Source: a virus | IMG/VR virus record: IMGVR_UViG_3300048672_000414 | Span: 1 to 56,763 of that record | Length of the DNA stretch: 56,763 bases | Strand: one strand, 5' to 3' | Part shown: positions 4,704-55,993 of the stretch, one piece after another | Position numbering within the stretch: position 1 is the first letter of the stretch | How the letters are laid out: every line of letters begins with the position of its first letter | Made by a program: the position numbers and the translations under genes | The notes under the pieces: generated by a model | Databases searched by the model: none | Told to the model about the DNA's origin: nothing | Seen by the model: the letters and a program-made list of their open reading frames with translations, nothing else

Positions 4704-6662
4704 ATGGATAAAAATAAAGTACTACATTTAAATAGTGCTTTTACCGTGAATACGAAAGCCCTACCCTCAACCGGAGCAAGCGACATTGAGTCCTTGTTCA
4801 TCGAAGGCTACGCAAGTACCGTAGATATTGATCGCAGCGGAGACGTTGTGCCCAAGTCGGTCTGGGAAAAGGGTATTCAAAACTACCTTAAAAATCCAAT
4901 CATTCTAGCACAGCACGATTACGATGATCCAATCGGGCGAATGGTAGATTACCGAGTGGACGATAAGGGGCTATGGGTAAAAGCCCGTATTTCTTCAGCT
5001 GCTGAAGAAGTCTATGGTTTAATCAAAGATCAAGTTTTAACTGCATTTAGCATTGGCTTCCGTATCAAAGATGCTGAGTACAACAGTGCAGCAGAAGTAT
5101 TTATTATCAAAGAGCTAGAACTAGTGGAAATTTCCGTTGTTTCAGTTCCTTGTAATCAAAATACCTTATTCGATTTGTCTAAGGCGTTTAGTTCCGCCCA
5201 AGATTTTAAACAATTCAAAGAGCAATTTGCACCCAAAAGCGAGTCAGCTAAAGGGCTAGAGTCCACAGCGGCAGCAAATGGCACAACCACAAAGGAAATT
5301 CCTATGAACCAAGAAGAAATTCAAAAGATGCTTGCTGACGCTGCTAAGAGCGCTGCCGAAGAAGCTACCAAGGCTATGTTAGCTGCCCAAGCTGCTGAAA
5401 AAGCCAAGCAGGAGGCTGAAGCTAAGGCTCAAGCCGAGTTCGAAGCTAAGGTCAAGAGTGCAGTTGCCCAGCACGTTGAAGTTGGTCAAAGCGGTGCCGA
5501 AAAGCTACTTGCCGAAGTTACCAAGCGTTTTGAAGAGCAGGCCGAAGCTAGCAAGAGCGCTATCGCTGGTCTAGAAGCTACTCTCAAGGAAAAGGCTGAC
5601 GAAATCGCTAAGATTCAAGCTAGCAAGATGAATTTTAGCGACAAGGGTGGCGATGCCGGTAATTACGGTGACCGCGAAAAGGCCGTTCTGTTAGCCAAGA
5701 TCGCCGGTAAGAGCCTAGAAGGTACTCGTTTTGGTGCTGAGATGGTTCAAAAGTACGGTCAGCACTTGCCAAGCGCTACCTGGGAACTGGAAGTTTCTAC
5801 CAATATGGAAGCTGAAGTTCGTCGTCGTTTAGTCGTTGCTCCGCTAGTTCGCGCAGTTAACATGAAGACTAACGTGATGACCATGCCTGTTAACCCTGAA
5901 GCCGGTCTGGCCTCGTGGGTTGCTAACAGTGACTTTGGCGGTGCTAACAGCGCGGGCGGTACGTCGGCTACTACAGGTCAAACTCCTGGTAGTGGCAGCC
6001 CACATGCAATCAAGGAAATTACCCTGAATGCATATAAGGTAGCAACGAAGGAATATTTAAACTACGAAGAAGAAGAAGATTCGTTACTGGTTATTATGCC
6101 TATCGTGCGCGACGCTATGATCCGCCGCTTAGCCCGTAGTGTTGACCGCGCTTACCTGTTAGGTGCTGGCGATGCTACTACTCCAGTCAAGGGTATCAGC
6201 AAGTACGCCACCGCTAACGTTACTAGCGCCGTTGCTAACAGCGCCAGCATCGCTAACCTGCGTAACCTGCGTAAGAACCTGGGTGCTTGGGGTCTTGATC
6301 CTGCTGAAGTCGTTTATGTTGTTTCTACCGAAGTGTACTACGACCTGCTTGACGACAGCACCTTCCAGACTATGAACCAAGTCGGTCCTCAGGCTACCCT
6401 GTTGACTGGTCAAGTCGGCCAAATCGGTAACAGCCCAGTGCTCGTTTCCGCTGAGTTTGATAGCAAGGCTGCTGGTAAGACCGGTGCCATCGCTTTTGCT
6501 CCAGGTAACTTCCTGGCCGGTAATCAGCGTGGTCTGCGTTTCGATACCCAAGAGCTGGTTGAGACTCAGCGTCGTGTTCTAGTTGCCAGCCTGCGTTCTG
6601 GCCTGACACAAGTCACTACCAACCTTGGTAATGGCGTTAGCGCTTTCAACTGGACTGCTTAA
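4704..6662 (+). CDS. Prohead protease - scaffold - major capsid fusion
   Basis: 652 residues in three parts. Residues about 28-165 are an HK97-type (U35) prohead protease with likely catalytic H71 (ILAQHDYDDPIGR), S116 (AFSIGFR) and E142 (VEISVVSVP). Residues about 200-310 are Ala/Glu/Lys-rich predicted coiled coil, resembling the HK97 delta/scaffold region. Residues about 311-652 are an HK97-fold major capsid protein. Most relatives encode protease and capsid separately. Self-cleavage after assembly is expected. An in-frame ATG with a good ribosome site (5304) could supply extra scaffold-capsid chains without the protease. Codon use becomes strongly biased (AAG lysine, GCT/GCC alanine) after this point, as in highly expressed genes. 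Confidence 0.9.
   Translation: MDKNKVLHLNSAFTVNTKALPSTGASDIESLFIEGYASTVDIDRSGDVVPKSVWEKGIQNYLKNPIILAQHDYDDPIGRMVDYRVDDKGLWVKARISSAAEEVYGLIKDQVLTAFSIGFRIKDAEYNSAAEVFIIKELELVEISVVSVPCNQNTLFDLSKAFSSAQDFKQFKEQFAPKSESAKGLESTAAANGTTTKEIPMNQEEIQKMLADAAKSAAEEATKAMLAAQAAEKAKQEAEAKAQAEFEAKVKSAVAQHVEVGQSGAEKLLAEVTKRFEEQAEASKSAIAGLEATLKEKADEIAKIQASKMNFSDKGGDAGNYGDREKAVLLAKIAGKSLEGTRFGAEMVQKYGQHLPSATWELEVSTNMEAEVRRRLVVAPLVRAVNMKTNVMTMPVNPEAGLASWVANSDFGGANSAGGTSATTGQTPGSGSPHAIKEITLNAYKVATKEYLNYEEEEDSLLVIMPIVRDAMIRRLARSVDRAYLLGAGDATTPVKGISKYATANVTSAVANSASIANLRNLRKNLGAWGLDPAEVVYVVSTEVYYDLLDDSTFQTMNQVGPQATLLTGQVGQIGNSPVLVSAEFDSKAAGKTGAIAFAPGNFLAGNQRGLRFDTQELVETQRRVLVASLRSGLTQVTTNLGNGVSAFNWTA
5291..5306 (+). 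promoter_or_regulatory. Internal ribosome site and start for scaffold-capsid
   Basis: AAAGGAAA (5291-5298) is followed at a normal distance by ATG 5304, in frame with the fusion gene (codon 201). Translation from here would give a 452-residue scaffold plus capsid protein (MNQEEIQ...). This resolves how hundreds of capsid subunits could be made with only some protease copies. The signal is seen; its use is inferred. Confidence 0.6.
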
Positions 6663-6669
6663 GTCTTAT

Positions 6670-6732
6670 GATAGGAGCGAAAGCTCCTATCTTATAAAAG
6701 CGTACCGTATATGGTACGCTTTTATAAGATAG
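6670..6732 (+). terminator. Overlapping double hairpin after the capsid gene
   Basis: Hairpin 1 has 9-bp arms (6670-6678, 6683-6691) closed by a GAAA tetraloop. Hairpin 2 has perfect 20-bp arms (6687-6706, 6713-6732) with a 6-nt loop. The 3' arm of hairpin 1 shares 6687-6691 with the 5' arm of hairpin 2, so both cannot be fully formed together. Hairpin 2 ends one or two bases before the GAGG ribosome site of the next gene. It may act as a transcription attenuator, RNase III site or expression step-down after the capsid gene. Confidence 0.7.
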
Positions 6733-17200: not shown

Positions 17201-18298
17201 GGGTATAAAGTAACCGAAGCTTTGGTAAACCTAGCCGGCGGACTACAAAACTTTATCGACGGTACTACGTTCTATCAAGAAAACTTCTTAACTGAACGTG
17301 AGCGTCTAGCTCCAGTACTTAAATCGACCGGAGATGAGTTAGGTAGAATAGTAAAAATGCTTGGCTATACAGTACCAGATGGGGCTATAGATACCCGTGA
17401 AGAGTTTACTAAGCTTGTAAAAAGCTTAGACTTAACTACTGATACAGGGCAAAAAGCGTATACTGCCTTAATGAATGTTGCACCAGGATTCGACAAGCTA
17501 ATGGATTACGTAGATCAGTTTACTTCTGATGCCATTAGCAAGATGAGTGACTTGGCAAAAACATTTAAGGACTTCGCTAAGCAGATATCAGATTTTAGAA
17601 GTGGACTGCTGCTAGGTAGTTTATCTACAGCTACCCCGCTAGAAAAACTATCTGCGGCAAAAACTGACTACTCTAAAACGCTGGCTGCAGCAATGGGTGG
17701 AGATAAGGATGCCTTAGGAAAGCTTACTTCCAGTGCAAGTACGTATCTTGAGCAGGCTAAGTCTATGTATGCTAGTAGCTCTACTTATACGGATATTTTT
17801 AATCAGGTTAATCAGCAGTTAGCAGATGCAGAAAAATATGCAGGAGACACAGCGGATTTAGCCCAACAGCAAGTAGATGCATTAAATGCACATACTCAAA
17901 TTTTAGCTAATATTGATGCAGGAATATCCAAACTAGCAGGAATCGACCCTATTCAAGCAGCCGCGACGGGCGGTTGGAGGCAGGGCTTAACACTTGTTGG
18001 GGAAAAAGGTCCTGAAATAGTGGACTTCCAAACGCCAGGTAGAGTTTATACCGCCGATCAAACCCGCGGGATGTTCTCTGCACCTGTCGGTGGAAACCAG
18101 CAGGCAGTTGTAGCAGAACTACAGGCACTACGCAAAGAAGTTGCACAGCTACGCCAAGATCAGCAGCAACAAACCGGCGACTTGATTAATACTAATTATG
18201 ACGCCACAAATACGCTAGCCGCCCACGTTGTAGACGCAGTAGCTAAGTCTACTGTAGACGCAAACTGGCAGTCTAGAACACAGGTAACACTTAAGTAA
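11300..18298 (+). CDS. Tail tape measure protein
   Basis: 2332 residues, the largest gene in the window. Long Ala/Lys/Glu/Gln-rich predicted coiled coils (about 330-560 and 1000-1560) and hydrophobic stretches near residues 600-640 and 1640-1660 (GWAAAAAVVAAIFGGGG) are typical of tape measures, which set tail length and help DNA delivery. The C-terminus carries GGWRQGLTLVGEKGPEIVDF, a segment common in this family. At about 0.15 nm per helical residue it predicts a tail near 350 nm. ATG 11300 follows AGGAGAAC. It has its own promoter and ends in a double hairpin. Confidence 0.95.
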   Translation: MATQNNVDIKVNVTDGGTTAKATKSAEQYKKTLEDAGKAAASISTGSVGGTAGSRAVAAAAAAPVKTAKTVSQPTGSAAIMDDSSYNAARGAAGATKASARDFAKQSRDLDGLVRVYATFAANIYAVGAAFRALSDAAATENLVKGLDSLGAASGKNLGFLSKQLVVATDGAISLKDAMTAVATASSAGMGSSQIKEIAVVASKASQALGVNMADAMSRLSRGITKLEPELLDELGIFTKVGEATSKYALAVGKSVTSLSDFEKRQAFANAVIAEGKKKFEELDTVTNPYDKLLASVTNLSTEGLGLVNKVLGPIIKLLSESPTALLGIFAAVGSALIKQAIPALGAWRESLAKSAEASAASAERIHTTFMEYSVDKDIAESAKRLKPAQEKVAKNLAEGQDLLASTLSKRSKILASAMLPNVNAEGLVKSLDTEISKRNVALDITAAKRDAEYAKGEKANQTLLGVLDRRITRQHEELLNLGEARDIYKDTANIVKKIQEDTEKFDNRNIKLFSFERGFKDSGEWMRKRIADAAQASATSKGILSAAGSDTATKGTIAAFKNLFDSIKNGIPKVDEFGEAIVGANGKVERIGKGLTGIPAILTKVTGSLLIAGSAIGTFLSSIQPILIVLELLVVAYGVFDSVASKAAKQQEAFNTATAGVESATKTAADTLTLYTQKKKEAFTIDAISAYTNAISGASDALRDQIIAFQDYKKSANIWDDLKDGIASVFGKGNLDKLQKGAVDSLKTTMNMLDYSSNSGASKTSLITSIFGDKAQFKDLNASTKELNKAFDGLTDAEREAKINKIAAAVENVRKSEEYATNAAKAFLESLSAVDKVVDQIIQANAFSDLQGKLGIELVQAAQKLAMALSDPLKALTDLAALGKDPKALAALNIAPDSSAMSALKQAVTYERQLNDLTKERKLAEDAKVLAEAGKGTRASALQKAESNVPFFGDLGGTTSSTARLRGAAVKGDIQDAKAKLDEIAKKIKDAQREATSFASNQISLVTQIAQTGFDRIQLGLKRAQEQAQIGVARTALNIAAGAGANTADKEFALKMQELKIQESLIEANYNVQLATIKNTQELEKLNINLQQGEAARLKASSLPEEQIAGQALEKSLAQRKRIIDLAEGKSSKQDLLSMRGSSVEAQAAIARRNELLIPGMQKDAALAATRGQAQSAELERQAKINAEELRNKEAKLNLENQILATQQEQVNLANQLGISSTDQLIDLKYALQFKQASNEADAKRAAVEAKIKDLKVAGITSGPEYERLAGEQGIYTQTLKQITAEETLKKLKLEYSKLDEKGAEYKKRINKEYELTLEDLRIENSLLSSNIVLEQLSIDAKSQLGAIDAQSAIIAKANLELRKEDIRYAEDALKLENDVANKKRDAADAAAKTALALNATQGKGLDSPEMQAFRQAQDSQDAAERAYQTALKNQSAAKTLSDINKQGINDTKALNLELERQKQLFADITAATESLAAIFGTVGESVGKFAETLAKVSLQNEANKKGMADNKKLQTDLLEKQKQGVDITQALSDAKEEESRLTKKSQKDELNGNIAVVASAKKMFGEKTAAAKALGDIEKVLHVQRIAMDLKEMVQKLFTDTAETNSKLTAEATQTGATEAGFLARTGTYISEIFAKFTATMGPWGWAAAAAVVAAIFGGGGGSSAPFVATAEQQQKVQGTAMSYNSTGSLVQTNRGVFGDTTAKSESIAKSLDIIESTSVEGLSYYNGMLDALKQIRDNTGTAAKNLYNIPGLRAGSLSGTIEGTNTSGGLLGIGGLFSKSVTKDIIDSGIKLSGTFGELVRGISSTIQTFETVSTTVKKSGFLGIGGSTSTSVDTTYQDLLGLDPKSFKALVDSLNNANNLVMSIAKTADLDLTAVQSTLDALSVDKTISLRGLKGEDFTKELSSVIGQILDDASSAIFTQFEQFAQFGEGMLETVVRVIDANTKVKQSLENSFISISNILGENGYKVTEALVNLAGGLQNFIDGTTFYQENFLTERERLAPVLKSTGDELGRIVKMLGYTVPDGAIDTREEFTKLVKSLDLTTDTGQKAYTALMNVAPGFDKLMDYVDQFTSDAISKMSDLAKTFKDFAKQISDFRSGLLLGSLSTATPLEKLSAAKTDYSKTLAAAMGGDKDALGKLTSSASTYLEQAKSMYASSSTYTDIFNQVNQQLADAEKYAGDTADLAQQQVDALNAHTQILANIDAGISKLAGIDPIQAAATGGWRQGLTLVGEKGPEIVDFQTPGRVYTADQTRGMFSAPVGGNQQAVVAELQALRKEVAQLRQDQQQQTGDLINTNYDATNTLAAHVVDAVAKSTVDANWQSRTQVTLK

Positions 18299-18300
18299 TA

Positions 18301-18361
18301 AAATAGGGCTATAACTTAGCCCTATTTTTAAAGTAAGCATATATGCTTACTTTAAAAATAG
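18301..18361 (+). terminator. Terminator overlapped by a 40-bp perfect palindrome
   Basis: Hairpin 1 has 11-bp arms (18301-18311, 18317-18327) and a 5-nt loop, ending in a short T-run. A 40-bp perfect palindrome covers 18322-18361 (centre ATATAT at 18339-18344). The two share 18322-18327. The palindrome ends one to three bases before the AAGGAG ribosome site of the next gene. The arrangement repeats that at 6670-6732. The sequence is certain; the regulatory role is inferred. Confidence 0.75.
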
Positions 18362-18372
18362 AAAGGAGCATT

Positions 18373-19893
18373 ATGCTTAACTATCAAACTTGGCTTGAGA
18401 AACAGAATACTATACGAATTTTGTTAGTACAGGTGGACGTGCTATACAACGGTACAACTACTACTAAATACTTTAGTACCCACGGCGTAACTGTGGACGG
18501 TATAGAATATCCAGCGATTATGCGTAACGGGTTTTCGTTAACTGAAAGTATTAGCTTAGAGTATACCGCTAATATTAGTTATGGGGATATAGAGGTAATT
18601 AATGGAAATGGAGAACTAGATATTTGGATTACTTCGCAATATGTATGGGTAAATAAACCTATCCGAGTATATGTAGGTGAACTGCCCCAAGCCGGAGCTA
18701 CTTCTACTATCGGAGACTTTGAGCAGATATTTAATGGGGTAGTTTCCGATATTGACTCAAAAGATAGGTATACCCTAAACCTAAAAGTGCGCGATAAGCT
18801 AGAGAAGTTAAATACCAGTATTAGTGAAGCCCTGTTAGGTAACTACTATAATGGCGTAGATAACGTAGATACTAGCGTATACGTAAACCAAAATAATAAT
18901 AGCATTAGGCCAGTTTGTTTTGGGGAAGTATTTAATATAACTCCGCTATTGAGTGACCCCGTAAACTTACACTACATGGTTAATACCATAGACGTAGAGC
19001 GTATTATTGAAGTACGAGATAACGGAGTGCCTGTTTTATTTACTCAAACTAGCCCAGTACCTGCAGGCAGTTTCCAGCTATTAAAATCTCCAGTAGGTAT
19101 AGTTACTTGCTCAGTGCAAGGTACAAAGCAAGTAGTAAGTACCTCAACCGGAGCAGTTACTGCAGGATACAGTGACTCTGGAAGTAATACAATTTTAACC
19201 ATATTACGACTATACGGCAAAGCTTTAGACTCTACGGAAATAGACTTAGCAAGTTTTACTACTCTAGGAACATATAGTGTAGGCGTATATTTATCCGAGC
19301 GTGCAAATGTACTAAAAGTATGTCAAGATATTGCTCGAGACTGTGGACACGTACTTACTATTACACGCCAGGGTAAGGTTCGTTTAGTCGATTTAAAGAT
19401 ACCTAATACCTATGTAGCTTCTATTACAGAATCCGATATTCTGTTAAATACTCTGTCTATAAGTAAAAAATTAGATGTAATTGCAGGTGTAAAGTTAGGA
19501 TACAGTAAAAACTATACTCAACAGCCAAACCTACTTACCGCAATACCACAGCAACATAAAGACTTTTATGCCTCAGACTATACTGAAAGCGTAAAGCAGG
19601 ACTTAAGTGTAAAATCAGCCTATAGTATTACTGTAGAACCGGCCCTGCAGGAAACATATCTAATTGATGGTAATGAAACGGATGTTGTAAGTTTATCTAT
19701 GTTAAACTTATTCAAAGTACCTCGTATAGTGTATAAATTTACAGGTACGGCAAGGTTACTAAGCGTGCAGTTAGGGGATGGCATACAATTGTCCAATATT
19801 AGTAGGTTTGGACTTAGTTCAAGTATTGGTTTAGTTATAAGTACCTCTCCAAACTGGACGCGTGGTACTATTGATTTAGAGGTATTAGTATAA
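18373..19893 (+). CDS. Tail tip / baseplate hub-like protein
   Basis: 506 residues from ATG 18373, which follows AAGGAG. The open frame extends to 18343, but that start lies inside the palindrome. The protein is rich in beta strands. It lies directly after the tape measure, where distal tail and hub proteins are encoded. Segments such as VDVLYNGTTTTKYFSTHGVT, YGDIEVINGNGELD and IFNGVVSDIDSKD suggest a distal-tail or hub fold that measures and defines surfaces at the tail tip. No catalytic motif was recognised. The tail fibre gene begins two bases after its stop. Confidence 0.6.
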   Translation: MLNYQTWLEKQNTIRILLVQVDVLYNGTTTTKYFSTHGVTVDGIEYPAIMRNGFSLTESISLEYTANISYGDIEVINGNGELDIWITSQYVWVNKPIRVYVGELPQAGATSTIGDFEQIFNGVVSDIDSKDRYTLNLKVRDKLEKLNTSISEALLGNYYNGVDNVDTSVYVNQNNNSIRPVCFGEVFNITPLLSDPVNLHYMVNTIDVERIIEVRDNGVPVLFTQTSPVPAGSFQLLKSPVGIVTCSVQGTKQVVSTSTGAVTAGYSDSGSNTILTILRLYGKALDSTEIDLASFTTLGTYSVGVYLSERANVLKVCQDIARDCGHVLTITRQGKVRLVDLKIPNTYVASITESDILLNTLSISKKLDVIAGVKLGYSKNYTQQPNLLTAIPQQHKDFYASDYTESVKQDLSVKSAYSITVEPALQETYLIDGNETDVVSLSMLNLFKVPRIVYKFTGTARLLSVQLGDGIQLSNISRFGLSSSIGLVISTSPNWTRGTIDLEVLV

Positions 19894-27288: not shown

Positions 27289-27343
27289 AGGGTCAACCAT
27301 AAGTAAAATTTGAGTTGACCCTAAACCGCTGCAATGTTATAAT
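27289..27343 (+). promoter_or_regulatory. PhoH promoter with an inverted repeat over the -35
   Basis: TTGACC (27315-27320), 17-nt spacer, TATAAT (27338-27343). AGGGTCAAC (27289-27297) is the inverse of GTTGACCCT (27314-27322), so the -35 lies in a 9-bp inverted repeat. Over 29 bp from the -35 to the -10 it differs at only three positions (all transitions) from the leftward promoter at 54633-54661, suggesting one regulon. Confidence 0.75.
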
Positions 27344-51484: not shown

Positions 51485-52240
51485 TTAGATTTCTTTCAAA
51501 AATTGATTGAGGTTTTGGATAATTTCAATACCGAGCTGATCGGCTTTTGTACGTTTAGAACTGCCTTTGTTATCCTCGTCGACCAAGTAGTTAGTGGTTT
51601 TTGTAACACTTTCTACAGGGCGGAAGCCGGCGGCTGTCAATGCGGCATATGCTTCTGCTTTAGTCTTAAAGGACTGTAGTTTGCCAGTAATACAGACGGA
51701 TTTAGCATCTGTAAGAGGAGTCTGGACTTGTCGAGAAACTTTGAAGGAGAAGGGCAAAAACTCCCTCATTTCTTGGAAATCTGTTTCTAGCCACGAGATA
51801 AGGTTTTCTGAGACTTTATCGCCTAGGCCAGCTTCTTTGCATTTATCGAACGTAATATCGTCGATAGTTTGTACAACGGTACACAGCTTAGCTGCTGCTG
51901 TCGCACCGAATAGTGGGATACTAAAAGCAGGAAGAATCTGTTGAAGGTCTGCACTGCGAGACTTATCAATCTCCGCCAAGAGCTTAGTAGCGATCCTGTC
52001 ACTACCAATAGCGTCGGCAAGCTGATCGTGCTCCAGATAGTAAAGCTCAGTAATGTCCGACAACTGTAGCTTTTCAACAGCCTTAGGACCCATGCCCTTA
52101 ATACCAAGAGTTTTGCAAAAGTGCTCAATTTTCTGATCTAGCCGAGCACTGCAGGCAGTATTTCTGCAAAATAGCTGTGAGTTAACTAACTCTAGCCTAT
52201 ACCCACACGCAGGGCACTTATCGGGAATGGTGATCTTCAT
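51485..52240 (-). CDS. NAD+-dependent DNA ligase, C-terminal subunit
   Basis: 251 residues. Zinc finger C9-x2-C12-x12-C25-x4-C30, then helix-hairpin-helix repeats (GIKGMGPKAVEKLQL, FSIPLFGATAAAKLC, AGLGDKVSENLI), and a C-terminal BRCT domain (AKSVCITGKLQSFKTKAEAY, VTKTTNYLVDED). These are exactly the domains that follow the OB fold in bacterial LigA, and they begin at the usual boundary. The catalytic half is at 53487-54449. It has two promoters of its own. Two-gene NAD ligases are annotated in T5-like phages. Confidence 0.92.
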   Translation of the reverse strand: MKITIPDKCPACGYRLELVNSQLFCRNTACSARLDQKIEHFCKTLGIKGMGPKAVEKLQLSDITELYYLEHDQLADAIGSDRIATKLLAEIDKSRSADLQQILPAFSIPLFGATAAAKLCTVVQTIDDITFDKCKEAGLGDKVSENLISWLETDFQEMREFLPFSFKVSRQVQTPLTDAKSVCITGKLQSFKTKAEAYAALTAAGFRPVESVTKTTNYLVDEDNKGSSKRTKADQLGIEIIQNLNQFLKEI

Positions 52241-52265
52241 AGTGCTTTTCTGATTTAATATAAGT

Positions 52266-52294
52266 ATTATACCGTATTAAGCTGTAGGGATCAA
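52266..52294 (-). promoter_or_regulatory. Ligase C-subunit promoter, proximal copy
   Basis: Minus strand TTGATC (52294-52289), 17-nt spacer, TATAAT (52271-52266). Part of a duplicated segment of about 57 bp; see 52358. Confidence 0.85.
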
Positions 52295-52357
52295 GCCGAT
52301 ATTTTTAATGCTTTGCGTCATACTTTGTCTTTGGGTGTTTTTTGACTCGATATAAGT

Positions 52358-52386
52358 ATTATACCAAATTAGATTGTCGAGATCAA
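52358..52386 (-). promoter_or_regulatory. Ligase C-subunit promoter, distal copy
   Basis: Minus strand TTGATC (52386-52381), 17-nt spacer, TATAAT (52363-52358). It lies 92 bp from the proximal copy. Both share ATAAGTATTATACC around the -10, GATCAAG at the -35 and the ATATTTTT-AATGCT flank, so the promoter was duplicated. 52295-52357 and 52241-52265 hold nothing else visible. Confidence 0.85.
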
Positions 52387-52408
52387 GTGGATATTTTTTA
52401 ATGCTCAA

Positions 52409-52564
52409 CTAAATAAAGTTTAGCTTGACCAAGACTTGCTCAACTAGGGTATACCAGGCCCACGGCGGCAGGATAAATGCAAAGAAAGAACTCCAGAACC
52501 CTTTAGCTAGTACAAGTCCTGCTAGCCAAGTTACGATTAAAACATATTTGTATACATATTGCAT
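52409..52564 (-). CDS. 51-residue membrane protein
   Basis: ATG 52564 overlaps the endonuclease stop by one base (TAATG). About 51 residues: VYKYVLIVTWLAGLVLAKGF and FFAFILPPWAWYTLVEQVLV give one or two hydrophobic segments. The pattern LAKGFWSSFFAFILPPWAWY resembles small phage membrane proteins of unknown role. It lies between the two ligase halves. Confidence 0.6.
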   Translation of the reverse strand: MQYVYKYVLIVTWLAGLVLAKGFWSSFFAFILPPWAWYTLVEQVLVKLNFI

Positions 52565-53421
52565 TAAGCATCCGCCTTATACCGTGTCCAGCCTTTGTGC
52601 GACGCTGATCTACCGGATAAAACATCATGTAGGCTACTCTTAGTAAGCCCATGTTTTTCGGCAAAAGGCGACACCCCCCTATACGGTATAGTGTAAACTA
52701 TATTATCGGGAGACACTATTTTTGTGGTATGTAGCTCAGTACCTGGTCTAGTCCAGCCCTTGCAGGATTTAGTTTTACCAGACAACAGCGCGGATAGTGG
52801 TCCAGATGAAAGTCCGTGTTCTTTGGCAAATCTAGTAATATTAGATACTTCAAATAGCTCTCCAGTCGGAGAGACTACACTTTGTGATATTTTTTTATTT
52901 CCAAGAGCCCTCCTGTTCCCTACAGATGCTTTGGCTTCTAGTTTTGAATAGAGTACAGGGTAGGCTTCTGCTAGCCAGAAGTGCCTAGTTAGGGACGATA
53001 TGTGCATTATAACGGAATTGGAAACTCCGGTTATTTCTTCTATTTCTTTGTAAGACATATTTGTCTCTGCTAGGTAAAATAATACCTCGTGGTAGTCTTC
53101 TTCCTTAAACTTACTGTTTGTATTATATATGCCATAGGCTCCGCCGTGCCCGCCCTGTACAGCATTAAATCCATTATCTATCGAGTCATACTGCTTAATG
53201 TAGTAACACTCGGTGGAGTCCAGTTCTTCTAGCGAACATTCTGCTAGTCTAACAAGAGTGGGCTCACCATACGTAGTATATGCCCCTTGTAGTTTAATAG
53301 AAGAATCTCCTGCACGCAACTCACTAACATGATTATTGTACCTTTTTTCTATACATCCGGACTGGCCTACATATACCTTATTGGTCCCATTAAATACTAA
53401 CTTATATATACCTATTGTCAT
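52564..53421 (-). CDS. GIY-YIG homing endonuclease 4, between the ligase halves
   Basis: 285 residues from ATG 53421 (GGAG eight bases upstream); the frame is open to 53475, but that lies over the promoter. Core IGIYKLVFNGTNKVYVGQSG, STECYYIKQYDS, GFNAVQGGHGG. One HTH-type module (YKEIEEITGVSNSVIMHIS, FWLAEAYPVLYSKLE) and two NUMOD-like repeats (SPTGELFEVSNITRFAKEHG ... LSGKTKSCKGW; VSPDNIVYTIPYRGVSPFAE ... LSGRSASHKGW). An active invader of the ligase locus is likely. Confidence 0.92.
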   Translation of the reverse strand: MTIGIYKLVFNGTNKVYVGQSGCIEKRYNNHVSELRAGDSSIKLQGAYTTYGEPTLVRLAECSLEELDSTECYYIKQYDSIDNGFNAVQGGHGGAYGIYNTNSKFKEEDYHEVLFYLAETNMSYKEIEEITGVSNSVIMHISSLTRHFWLAEAYPVLYSKLEAKASVGNRRALGNKKISQSVVSPTGELFEVSNITRFAKEHGLSSGPLSALLSGKTKSCKGWTRPGTELHTTKIVSPDNIVYTIPYRGVSPFAEKHGLTKSSLHDVLSGRSASHKGWTRYKADA

Positions 53422-53446
53422 AAAATTCTCCGACTCTATAAAGTAT

Positions 53447-53475
53447 ATTATACTCTCAAAGTCCGAGAATTTCAA
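53447..53475 (-). promoter_or_regulatory. Promoter of homing endonuclease 4
   Basis: Minus strand TTGAAA (53475-53470), 17-nt spacer, TATAAT (53452-53447); start of transcription about 20 bp before ATG 53421. Confidence 0.85.
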
Positions 53476-53486
53476 GTATATTTTTA

Positions 53487-54449
53487 TTAACCCTCTACTT
53501 TATGTAGGATACAGGGAATCACTGAGCCTGCCCTAATAACTGCTAAGGTATCTCCAATCTCGATGCCAAGGGCCTCTATAAAGCCCGGATTATTGAGAGT
53601 AGCGCGACTGACAATAGCGTCTTCTATCATAACAGGCTCAAGGATAGCTACAGGGGTCACCTTGCCGTTACGAGATACTTGCCACTCTACATCTAGTAGC
53701 TTGGTTTCTACGTGTTCAGCACGCAGCTTTAATGCGTATGCACCTTTTGGTGCCTTAGCTGTGTACCCCATTTCGTCAAACAACTCGTTGCTGTTAACGC
53801 GGAAAACCATACCGTCGCTAGGAAAGATTTTTTCCAGGTTCAGCTCGTTGCAGACCCCAAAGCCAAGTGCGCGGAGAGCAGCCATATCAGTACTGTGCTT
53901 AGGGGTAAGATATGGGTACACACCGTAAGCAATAAAGCTGAGAACTCGTTCCTTAAACTCCTCCGCGGACTTCAGGTTAAGAGCACCAGCAGCATAGTTA
54001 CGAGCATTAGGAATGTTGATGGGAGCCACGACCTCGCCAGTAATTTGTAGTACCGGCGGCACATTGATGCGATCCGGGTTGAGTGTGTGTGGCACCAACT
54101 TACTAGCCAAGACCTTATCGGTAATGTCTGTACCCTCAATGCCGTCACCACGAGTAAGGGCACGCACTAGCTCACCATCAACATAAAGCAGGCTAATCGC
54201 AGCACCGTCCAGTTTAACACTAGACGATACATCTCCCATACCCTCAAGCGGACGATTACGGCCTTCGTCTTCATAAAACTTTTGCAGCGAGTACATCTGC
54301 TTGTAGTGCTTGACGGTACCCTCAACCGCACCTACTTTATTGTAGCCGCAACTATCGGCCAGTCTATCAAACTGCTCGTCAGTAATGATAGGAGTACCGC
54401 GGTAGTATGCCTGGGCGGCAGTGTCAAGAAAATCGGTGAGCTTTGTCAT
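53487..54449 (-). CDS. ligA: NAD+-dependent DNA ligase, N-terminal catalytic subunit
   Basis: 320 residues from ATG 54449 (AAGGAAAATA upstream, one-base overlap with the previous stop). AYYRGTPIITDEQFDRL (13-29) is the NAD-binding Ia motif. SVKLDG contains the nucleotidyl-accepting K79. ITGEVVAP, LALRALGFG-type and YALKLRAEHVETKLLDVEW segments complete the adenylation domain. VSRNGKVTPVAILEPV and ATLNNPGFIE begin the OB fold. It ends at RAGSVIPCILHKVEG, where intact LigA continues into the zinc finger found at 51485-52240. It must act with that subunit to seal nicks. Confidence 0.93.
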   Translation of the reverse strand: MTKLTDFLDTAAQAYYRGTPIITDEQFDRLADSCGYNKVGAVEGTVKHYKQMYSLQKFYEDEGRNRPLEGMGDVSSSVKLDGAAISLLYVDGELVRALTRGDGIEGTDITDKVLASKLVPHTLNPDRINVPPVLQITGEVVAPINIPNARNYAAGALNLKSAEEFKERVLSFIAYGVYPYLTPKHSTDMAALRALGFGVCNELNLEKIFPSDGMVFRVNSNELFDEMGYTAKAPKGAYALKLRAEHVETKLLDVEWQVSRNGKVTPVAILEPVMIEDAIVSRATLNNPGFIEALGIEIGDTLAVIRAGSVIPCILHKVEG

Positions 54450-54672: not shown

Positions 54673-54885
54673 TTAAGCTGTGTACCAGTCATCTGACATA
54701 ATATCGGACTGTTTAGGCATCCAGTAGTCGTACTCGCCATCCTCGAAAATGTGAATTTCCGGAGAGCCATAAAAATCATGTACGCGCATTTCTAGGAAAG
54801 GTGTACAGCTGGCTTTTTCGGTCCACTCTAGCTTATAGACGCGCGAGCCTTGCTTGAGCTGCTTGAGTGCTTTACTAAAGTTCAT
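54673..54885 (-). CDS. DUF2829 / Tad2-like protein A (candidate anti-Thoeris)
   Basis: 70 residues. NFSKALKQLKQGSRVYKLEW (2-21), then a middle with PEIHIF, and MPKQSDIMSDDWY (56-68) match the DUF2829 pattern: N-terminal helix, conserved Trp (W21) and P-x-Q-x-D...DW ending. DUF2829 includes Tad2, which sequesters the gcADPR signal of the bacterial Thoeris system. Tandem with a related gene (54905-55105). The ligand and activity cannot be read from sequence. Confidence 0.8.
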   Translation of the reverse strand: MNFSKALKQLKQGSRVYKLEWTEKASCTPFLEMRVHDFYGSPEIHIFEDGEYDYWMPKQSDIMSDDWYTA

Positions 54886-54904: not shown

Positions 54905-55105
54905 TTAAAAAGTCTGCCAGTCGCCAGCTATGATATCGTCATGTACCAGGGCGTACCTGAAACCATTACGAAATACTACTAAATTTAGGTCATCTGGGTG
55001 GCTGTTGTCTATGGATGCTACACCAAGCGATCCGTCAGCTAACCAGCTCTCGCGGCAACCAAAGCTACCTTCTTTTAGCTTAGGCACTAATTCATCAAGG
55101 TACAC
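54905..55105 (-). CDS. DUF2829 / Tad2-like protein B, GTG start
   Basis: 66 residues, starting at GTG 55105 after AAAGGAA. YLDELVPKLKEGSFGCRESW (2-21) and VHDDIIAGDWQ (54-64) align with paralogue A (W21, D...GDW), but the middle is different. Together they suggest duplication and divergence, possibly with different signal ligands. The start codon and ribosome site are inside one arm of an 18-bp inverted repeat (55107-55163). Confidence 0.65.
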   Translation of the reverse strand: MYLDELVPKLKEGSFGCRESWLADGSLGVASIDNSHPDDLNLVVFRNGFRYALVHDDIIAGDWQTF

Positions 55106-55106
55106 T

Positions 55107-55188
55107 TTGTTTCCTTTATATTGCTGTCTAAGTAATTATTATACCGCAATATAAAGGAAACAACAAGACTGTAAATCTTGTTGTTTCC
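55107..55188 (-). terminator. Overlapping terminator and RBS-covering hairpin
   Basis: In transcript order (minus strand): hairpin 1 has 13-bp arms (55188-55176, 55168-55156), after the SPFH gene. An 18-bp perfect inverted repeat follows (55163-55146 and 55124-55107, 21-nt spacer). The 3' arm of hairpin 1 and the 5' arm of hairpin 2 share 55156-55163. The 3' arm of hairpin 2 contains AAAGGAA, the ribosome site of the next gene. Same design as 6670-6732 and 18301-18361. Confidence 0.75.
55138..55166 (-). promoter_or_regulatory. Promoter of the twin Tad2-like genes
   Basis: Minus strand TTGTTG (55166-55161), 17-nt spacer, TATAAT (55143-55138). The -35 is inside the terminator hairpin and the -10 lies in the spacer of the inverted repeat. 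A transcript from here contains only the right arm, so its ribosome site would be free; read-through mRNA would have it covered. Confidence 0.7.
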
Positions 55189-55195
55189 TGTAGGG

Positions 55196-55993
55196 TTACT
55201 TAATATTCACCATACCCTTGAAGTCAACCGGCACAACAATAGTCTGCACCTTACCTGCTGCAATGCCTTCAGCAATCTTCATCTGTGCTTGGGCCTGCAT
55301 ATAGGCGATGCTTTGGCCACTGTTCTGTGCCAGGGCGGACATACGTTCGGCTTCCAGCTTAGCTAGCTTGACCTCGTTTTCCTTGATCTTCAGCTCGTTT
55401 TGAGACTTAACAAACTCTGTTGCACTGCGCAGGATCTCTGCGTTAGGGGCAACGTTACGAATCTGGACCACGTTAAGTGTGATGCTGGTATCCAGCTTTT
55501 CTTCACGCAGCTGTTCATTTACAATGATGCGAATCTGCTCTTCGATCTTAGCTCGATTATCCGCAACCTCTAGTGCCTTATATTGGCGAATGGCTTTGTA
55601 GGCCGCGTTATTAACCAGCGTAGACACATAGTTGTACATCAGGTAGATGCCTTCCTTGTCTTCTGCATGGAAGCTACGGGATTTAGTGCTGTAAAGTTCG
55701 GACACCGAGCTAGGGTTGATGGCATAGACTACTGTAATATCGAAGTCTGCCAACGCCGAGTTATCTGCCGTCATAGGAGTTTTATTTTCCAGCGAGACAG
55801 TAATGTCTTTGACCGGAAACTCCAGCACGGAGCCAATCAGCGTTTGATTCCAGGAGCCCGGCTGAAGCTCTTTGCCTTCAATTTCACGAGAGGCGTTAAC
55901 TCGAACACCCACCTCGCCAGTTTCAATGCGAGTACAAGCAGTGGTAGCAACAATAGCAGCAACAATGGTAGCAAGTTTGAGAAAGTTAGTCAT
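55196..55993 (-). CDS. SPFH/Band 7 (prohibitin-like) lipoprotein
   Basis: 265 residues from ATG 55993. N-terminal signal LKLATIVAAIVATTACT with a lipobox-like TTAC (Cys about 20), then RIETGEVGVRVNASREIEGK, the beginning of an SPFH domain (about 23-200), and an acidic-basic coiled coil (NELKIKENEVKLAKLEAERM, about 205-240). SPFH proteins form ring-shaped membrane scaffolds. A lipoprotein form anchored in the cell envelope could block superinfection or protect the host membrane; this is inference. Confidence 0.82.
   Translation of the reverse strand: MTNFLKLATIVAAIVATTACTRIETGEVGVRVNASREIEGKELQPGSWNQTLIGSVLEFPVKDITVSLENKTPMTADNSALADFDITVVYAINPSSVSELYSTKSRSFHAEDKEGIYLMYNYVSTLVNNAAYKAIRQYKALEVADNRAKIEEQIRIIVNEQLREEKLDTSITLNVVQIRNVAPNAEILRSATEFVKSQNELKIKENEVKLAKLEAERMSALAQNSGQSIAYMQAQAQMKIAEGIAAGKVQTIVVPVDFKGMVNIK

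Follow-up and report, generated by a model that had tools for sequence, protein, structure and literature searches.

The stretch of DNA analysed here (the window) comprises all 56,763 bases of an IMG/VR virus record derived from environmental DNA. The DNA polymerase that it encodes shares 48% identity with that of T5-like phages, and its gene order resembles T5-like genomes, with terminase, portal, capsid and tape measure genes followed by replication genes on the opposite strand. At the contig start there is a tandem repeat of CGCCCCAGCA (1-85), and palindromes come after it at 86-134 and 300-335. The NAD-dependent DNA ligase is split in two genes that are separated by one for a GIY-YIG endonuclease (51485-54449, minus strand), and some relatives have an endonuclease at this same place. 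The locus under study, termed site 3, sits in a 1.7-kb segment between the pc4 and ligA genes. Its features are as follows.

55196..55993, minus strand: SPFH/Band 7 protein gene, upstream of tad_a (PF01145, E = 3.5e-17)
55176..55189, minus strand: arm 1, the 5' arm of terminator hairpin A, with 14 perfect pairs to 55155-55168
55155..55168, minus strand: upper part of arm 2, the 3' arm of terminator hairpin A, with the tail TTTATATT after it
55155..55163, minus strand: shared strand, which pairs with arm 1 (hairpin A) or arm 3 (hairpin B), never both
55148..55175, minus strand: second, overlapping promoter candidate TTTACA-N16-TATATT (10/12 matches; equalled by 2.9% of shuffles)
55138..55166, minus strand: candidate promoter TTGTTG-N17-TATAAT (-35 matches 3/6, -10 matches 6/6; start expected near 55131-55129)
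55139..55163, minus strand: arm 2 of hairpin B (5' arm, 25 nt), including the base of A's 3' arm and the U-tract, 92% complementary to 55107-55131
55107..55131, minus strand: arm 3 of hairpin B (3' arm), which holds the Shine-Dalgarno (SD), as read from the sequence
55112..55116, minus strand: SD AAGGA of Tad2-like gene a, inside B's 3' arm, with 6-nt spacing to the GTG start
54905..55105, minus strand: Tad2-like gene a (tad_a), 66 aa, GTG start (PF11195, E = 0.024, 15.6 bits)
54673..54885, minus strand: Tad2-like gene b (tad_b), 70 aa, next after tad_a (PF11195, E = 5.9e-13)

The designation Tad2-like, given to the GTG-started gene by an earlier sequence-only reading, is weak for tad_a, which falls below the curated PF11195 cut-off (15.6 bits versus 25), but is good for the next gene tad_b, which lies above this cut-off at 49.6 bits and also matches Tad2 Gp34.65 in the PDB (E = 2e-5). 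A single-sequence structure prediction for tad_a is of low confidence (pLDDT 57) and shows helices followed by strands, and a BLASTP alignment of tad_a with tad_b covers 11 residues only. No relatives of tad_a or tad_b were found in IMG/VR, and no phage isolate gave a DNA match to the 2.2-kb stretch around site 3; nor did sequenced isolates yield a close relative of the window.

The minus strand of site 3 does contain an overlapping terminator and inverted repeat, as the sequence-only reading had recognized. Arm 1 of hairpin A starts 6 nt past the Band 7 stop codon (55198-55196), and the arms at 55189-55176 and 55168-55155 form 14 perfect pairs, or 16 pairs if the loop is taken as 3 nt. With 14-16 pairs, a loop of 3-7 nt and the tail TTTATATT, hairpin A has the stable stem and subsequent U-tract of an intrinsic terminator; the stem is GC-poor and the U-tract is interrupted. 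Hairpin B has 25-nt arms (55163-55139 and 55131-55107) that are 92% complementary, and its inner 18 pairs are perfect. The overlap was likewise seen correctly, although the shared stretch is 9 nt (55163-55155) and not the 8 nt first given (55156-55163). The ribosome site of the GTG-started gene was also placed correctly in the 3' arm of the repeat, with the SD (55116-55112) located 10 nt inside hairpin B. The 107-nt region folds with a z of -5.7, with none of 200 shuffles as good, and simple-pattern terminator-like matches around site 3 show no excess over chance. The architecture at site 3 is real and non-random.

A promoter had also been proposed to lie inside this structure, and the TTGTTG-N17-TATAAT candidate is plausible in that it has the spacing and exact -10 of a phage promoter class, although its -35 is weak (3/6). 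Specifically, the window has 15 matches to the strict class TTGA-N19-TATAAT versus 0.25 expected, with many of these sites directly before genes. When the fourth -35 base is relaxed (TTG-N20-TATAAT) there are 16 sites versus 0.91 expected, and the sole addition is the site 3 candidate, which does not have the TTGA A found in the other 15. The start expected from this candidate, at about 55131, is the first base of arm 3. Two of the 15 strict promoters, at 27315 (+) and 54661 (-), hardly differ across all 29 bases. Note also that some hairpins straddle other phage promoters, by a rough estimate no more than expected by chance.

Folding predictions indicate that accessibility of the SD depends on where the RNA begins. 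The mean unpaired probability of the SD is 0.20 with both A and B present versus 0.89 if the RNA starts at arm 3, values that depend on the sequence end chosen, with one fold in which the SD's two G are base-paired to the beginning of the coding region. The claim that the source of transcription gates the SD is thus in line with its predicted burial on read-through RNA and its predicted freedom on RNA starting at arm 3. What is not supported is the accompanying claim that a free site would be confined to locally started transcripts. The A-complete and B-complete folds are nearly equal in energy (-29.6 and -29.1 kcal/mol, about 0.5 apart), and the A-complete fold leaves lower arm 3, together with most of the SD, unpaired. 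Since A is made first and its completion uncovers most of the SD, read-through would yield RNA that is closed only in part, and a restriction to locally started transcripts is therefore too strong.

This type of control is known in phages, so the statement that such logic is not usually described was wrong for phages generally. In the case of T4 e, soc, 49, I-TevI and segB, and of Aeh1 mobE, the SD is hidden on read-through transcripts only, and a promoter in or beside the 5' strand of the hairpin yields an RNA with a free SD (PMC3014915, PMC2988022). Site 3 is like these leaders in that a hairpin is predicted to mask the SD on RNA initiated upstream, as judged by the predicted unpaired value of 0.20. 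There are also several differences. The masking hairpin at site 3 shares a strand with an upstream terminator, its promoter candidate is of a sigma-70-like phage class and is not a T4 late promoter, and its gene is Tad2-like and not one for lysis or homing. For an anti-defence gene, no report of this SD-masking logic was found in the limited set of open-access papers searched. We regard the logic proposed for site 3 as known T4 logic on an unusual gene, with a lock that is leaky and not absolute. Classical attenuators also have two mutually exclusive hairpins with a common strand, but in the A/B pair the polymerase makes the competing strand only once it has passed the terminator. Thus, B cannot antiterminate for the polymerase that made it, and this order of synthesis rules out a role of B as an antiterminator.

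Site 3 had been called the third pair of its kind, and this is correct. The other two pairs are on the opposite strand, as follows.

4704-6662: capsid gene, which precedes site 1
6670..6732, plus strand: site 1, A/B pair between the capsid and head-adaptor genes (A spans 6670-6691 and B 6687-6732; the SD lies immediately beyond B)
18300..18361, plus strand: site 2, A/B pair between the tape-measure and tail-hub genes (A spans 18300-18328 and B 18322-18361; the SD lies immediately beyond B)

Scanning the window with a program written to detect overlapping hairpin pairs yields these three sites versus a mean of 0.025 per dinucleotide-shuffled genome, and additionally gives the mirror image of site 3 and a weak fourth candidate at the score threshold (50735-50686). 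The A/B arms of the three sites are unrelated in sequence, and at all three the order on the coding strand is terminator, B, SD and start codon.

The arrangement at site 1 is also found in many relatives. For the capsid gene, 194 relatives were confirmed in IMG/VR, and among the contigs of the best 80 of these 194 an overlapping A/B pair follows the capsid gene in 71, with most of the remaining contigs interrupted by contig ends. In an alignment (A1) of 26 distinct capsid-junction sequences, 95.9% of hairpin B cells are paired and 12 of 14 pairs show compensatory changes; the covariation score is 0.65, compared with 0.21 after shuffling and a maximum of 0.14 after sliding. Hairpin A of these elements covaries too. 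G-U pairs outnumber C-A pairs in hairpin B by 21 to 3, an excess that is expected for coding-strand RNA. Hairpin B is a near-perfect 15-23 bp stem in all capsid-junction elements, and the A- and B-complete folds are no more than 2 kcal/mol apart in 22 of 25 family members. The distance from stop codon to arm 1 ranges in this class from about 0 to 27 nt. Among the homologous capsid/head-adaptor junctions (L098-L177), the covarying pair is present in at least 71 contigs. A pair between the tape-measure and hub genes, as at site 2, is also present in G001, G015, G017 and G018, and the minus strand of G018 has an A/B pair at about 67684-67622 (L227) in which the two boxes of a TTGATT-N17-TATAAT promoter are spaced by B's 3' arm. 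Rfam gave no match in the window at gathering score and no match in 12 relatives at E <= 1, and in the literature searched we found no description of a terminator that shares a strand with a second covarying pre-SD hairpin. The larger finding is a conserved, covarying overlapping-hairpin element at late-gene junctions that is apparently uncatalogued.

Several characterized phages have parts of this arrangement. The T5-like Demerecviridae isolates (SmurfNell, JSF10, pVp-1 and others) have the same gene order and an intrinsic terminator at the same junction after the major head gene, but this junction has A only, with no B, and the U-tract runs directly to the SD. The seg43(25) leader of Aeromonas phage 25 has a very stable hairpin that ends right before the RBS and leaves it uncovered (PMC2988022). 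This resembles the capsid-junction class, where the hairpin also abuts the RBS without covering it, although PMC2988022 mentions neither an overlapping terminator nor a conserved shared strand for it. Vibrio phage pVp-1 (L245) also has two A/B pairs (18222-18288 and 18686-18754) beside its pre-early A1/A2 genes; both contain one repeated palindrome (AATTTACAGTGTAAATT...AGTTTACACTGTAAATT), and they lie on either side of a small gene located between A2 and A1.

The position of the SD sets site 3 apart from this class. The SD starts mostly 0-4 nt past B's foot in the 25 capsid-junction elements of relatives, and it is outside B in nearly all of these as well as at window sites 1 and 2. Its mean unpaired probability is 0.60 versus 0.52 with arm 3 shuffled (Wilcoxon p = 0.004; 27 elements, comprising the 25 relatives and sites 1 and 2), a small gain that is absent at sites 1 and 2 themselves. 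A role of B as a general SD lock is thereby ruled out for the class. Promoters are also at chance, with 1 in 26 A/B elements versus 1.66 expected, which rules out a promoter as a feature of the whole class. Gating is therefore not supported as a general logic at these junctions. Sites 1 and 2 have A, an overlapping B and an SD a few nt outside B's foot, whereas site 3 has the A/B overlap with the SD inside B and also has a promoter candidate in the shared strand, inside the element. Structurally, site 3 belongs to this phage group's conserved class of overlapping terminator and pre-SD hairpins.

The surroundings of site 3 in relatives are different. The pc4 and ligA genes are nearly adjacent in many relatives, and others have different or longer inserts there. 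No Tad2 match was found in 24 relative records, no hairpin pair before a Tad2 gene was found at 40 Band 7 relative loci (there was one unrelated-looking scanner match, L023), and 54 ligA relative loci had neither such a pair nor a Tad2-like match by tblastn. As judged from these comparisons, the Tad2 copy is a variant specific to this lineage, located in a 1.7-kb insert and having its SD shifted inside B, and for this reason no covariation test of the site 3 copy is possible.

The reading that we favor, with a probability of about one half, is that site 3 is a compressed transcription-unit boundary that combines terminator A, an embedded promoter and leaky closure of the SD on read-through. 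Hairpin A would end the Band 7 transcript, and a phage-type promoter in the shared strand would start a tad_a-tad_b RNA whose first base coincides with that of arm 3 or lies close to it, probably near 55131. This locally started RNA would not contain B's 5' arm, leaving the SD open. Read-through RNA would have both hairpins, with the 9-nt shared strand pairing with either arm 1 or arm 3. Pairing with arm 1 would complete A, mostly release arm 3 and largely uncover the SD, and pairing with arm 3 would complete B and close the SD. Given these alternatives, read-through RNA would provide a second, leaky barrier to translation and not a lock. Against this reading stand the weak -35 of the promoter candidate, the GC-poor stem and interrupted U-tract of A, the chance frequency of simple terminator-like patterns around site 3, the restriction of the site to one lineage and the SD left uncovered by B in the conserved class.

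Other explanations have to be weighed against this reading. One that we hold to be rather doubtful is that the pair insulates the RBS or serves in RNA processing. B would then form solely in RNA extending past terminator A, where it would hold the SD apart from the U-tract and the base of A and might act as a site of double-strand cleavage. Once cut, the upstream mRNA could have a re-formed A at its 3' end. The Tad2 copy would act alike, with its promoter being secondary. This would fit the near-perfect B stem throughout the class, the SD placement just past B's foot in the 25 relatives, the slightly higher SD accessibility over arm-3 shuffles and the chance level of promoters. However, the accessibility gain is small and is not seen at window sites 1 and 2, and the SD of the Tad2 site is inside B, a placement that an insulator would avoid.

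It is improbable that the 25-nt inverted repeat is instead a DNA operator bound by a repressor of the tad promoter, with the RNA fold being incidental. The repeat has its center at about 55135, with the -10 to one side and the expected start to the other, and does straddle the -10 and start region, but its arms exceed the usual operator length and are unrelated in sequence among sites 1, 2 and 3. Covariation in the class, the excess of G-U over C-A pairs and the identical polarity of terminator, B and SD at the three window sites also speak against an operator. A ribosome-linked switch, in which a ribosome ending Band 7 translation covers arm 1 and blocks A, giving read-through with the SD closed via B, while absence of the ribosome allows A to form and the SD to open, would take advantage of the stop codon 6 nt before arm 1 and of the isoenergetic A- and B-complete folds. 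We consider it quite improbable, as the distance from stop codon to arm 1 in the class is past the ribosome footprint in many members.

Returning to the compressed boundary that we favor at site 3, a broader proposal can be made tentatively, and we view it as possible at best. The A/B pair may be a dedicated three-strand RNA element, absent from Rfam and conserved at late-gene junctions of a large uncultured T5-related phage group, with A and B held at equal energy for strand exchange. The Tad2 locus would then be a recruited variant with its SD on the exchanging strand, such that termination, read-through and anti-defence translation would compete for nine bases. Gating, insulation and RNA processing each may be the function of the element. 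The presence of an A/B element at one junction across many divergent phages offers a simple, testable model of expression control from gene to gene in long late operons. Gating at site 3 would be, to our knowledge, the first known hint of such control on a Tad2-like gene.
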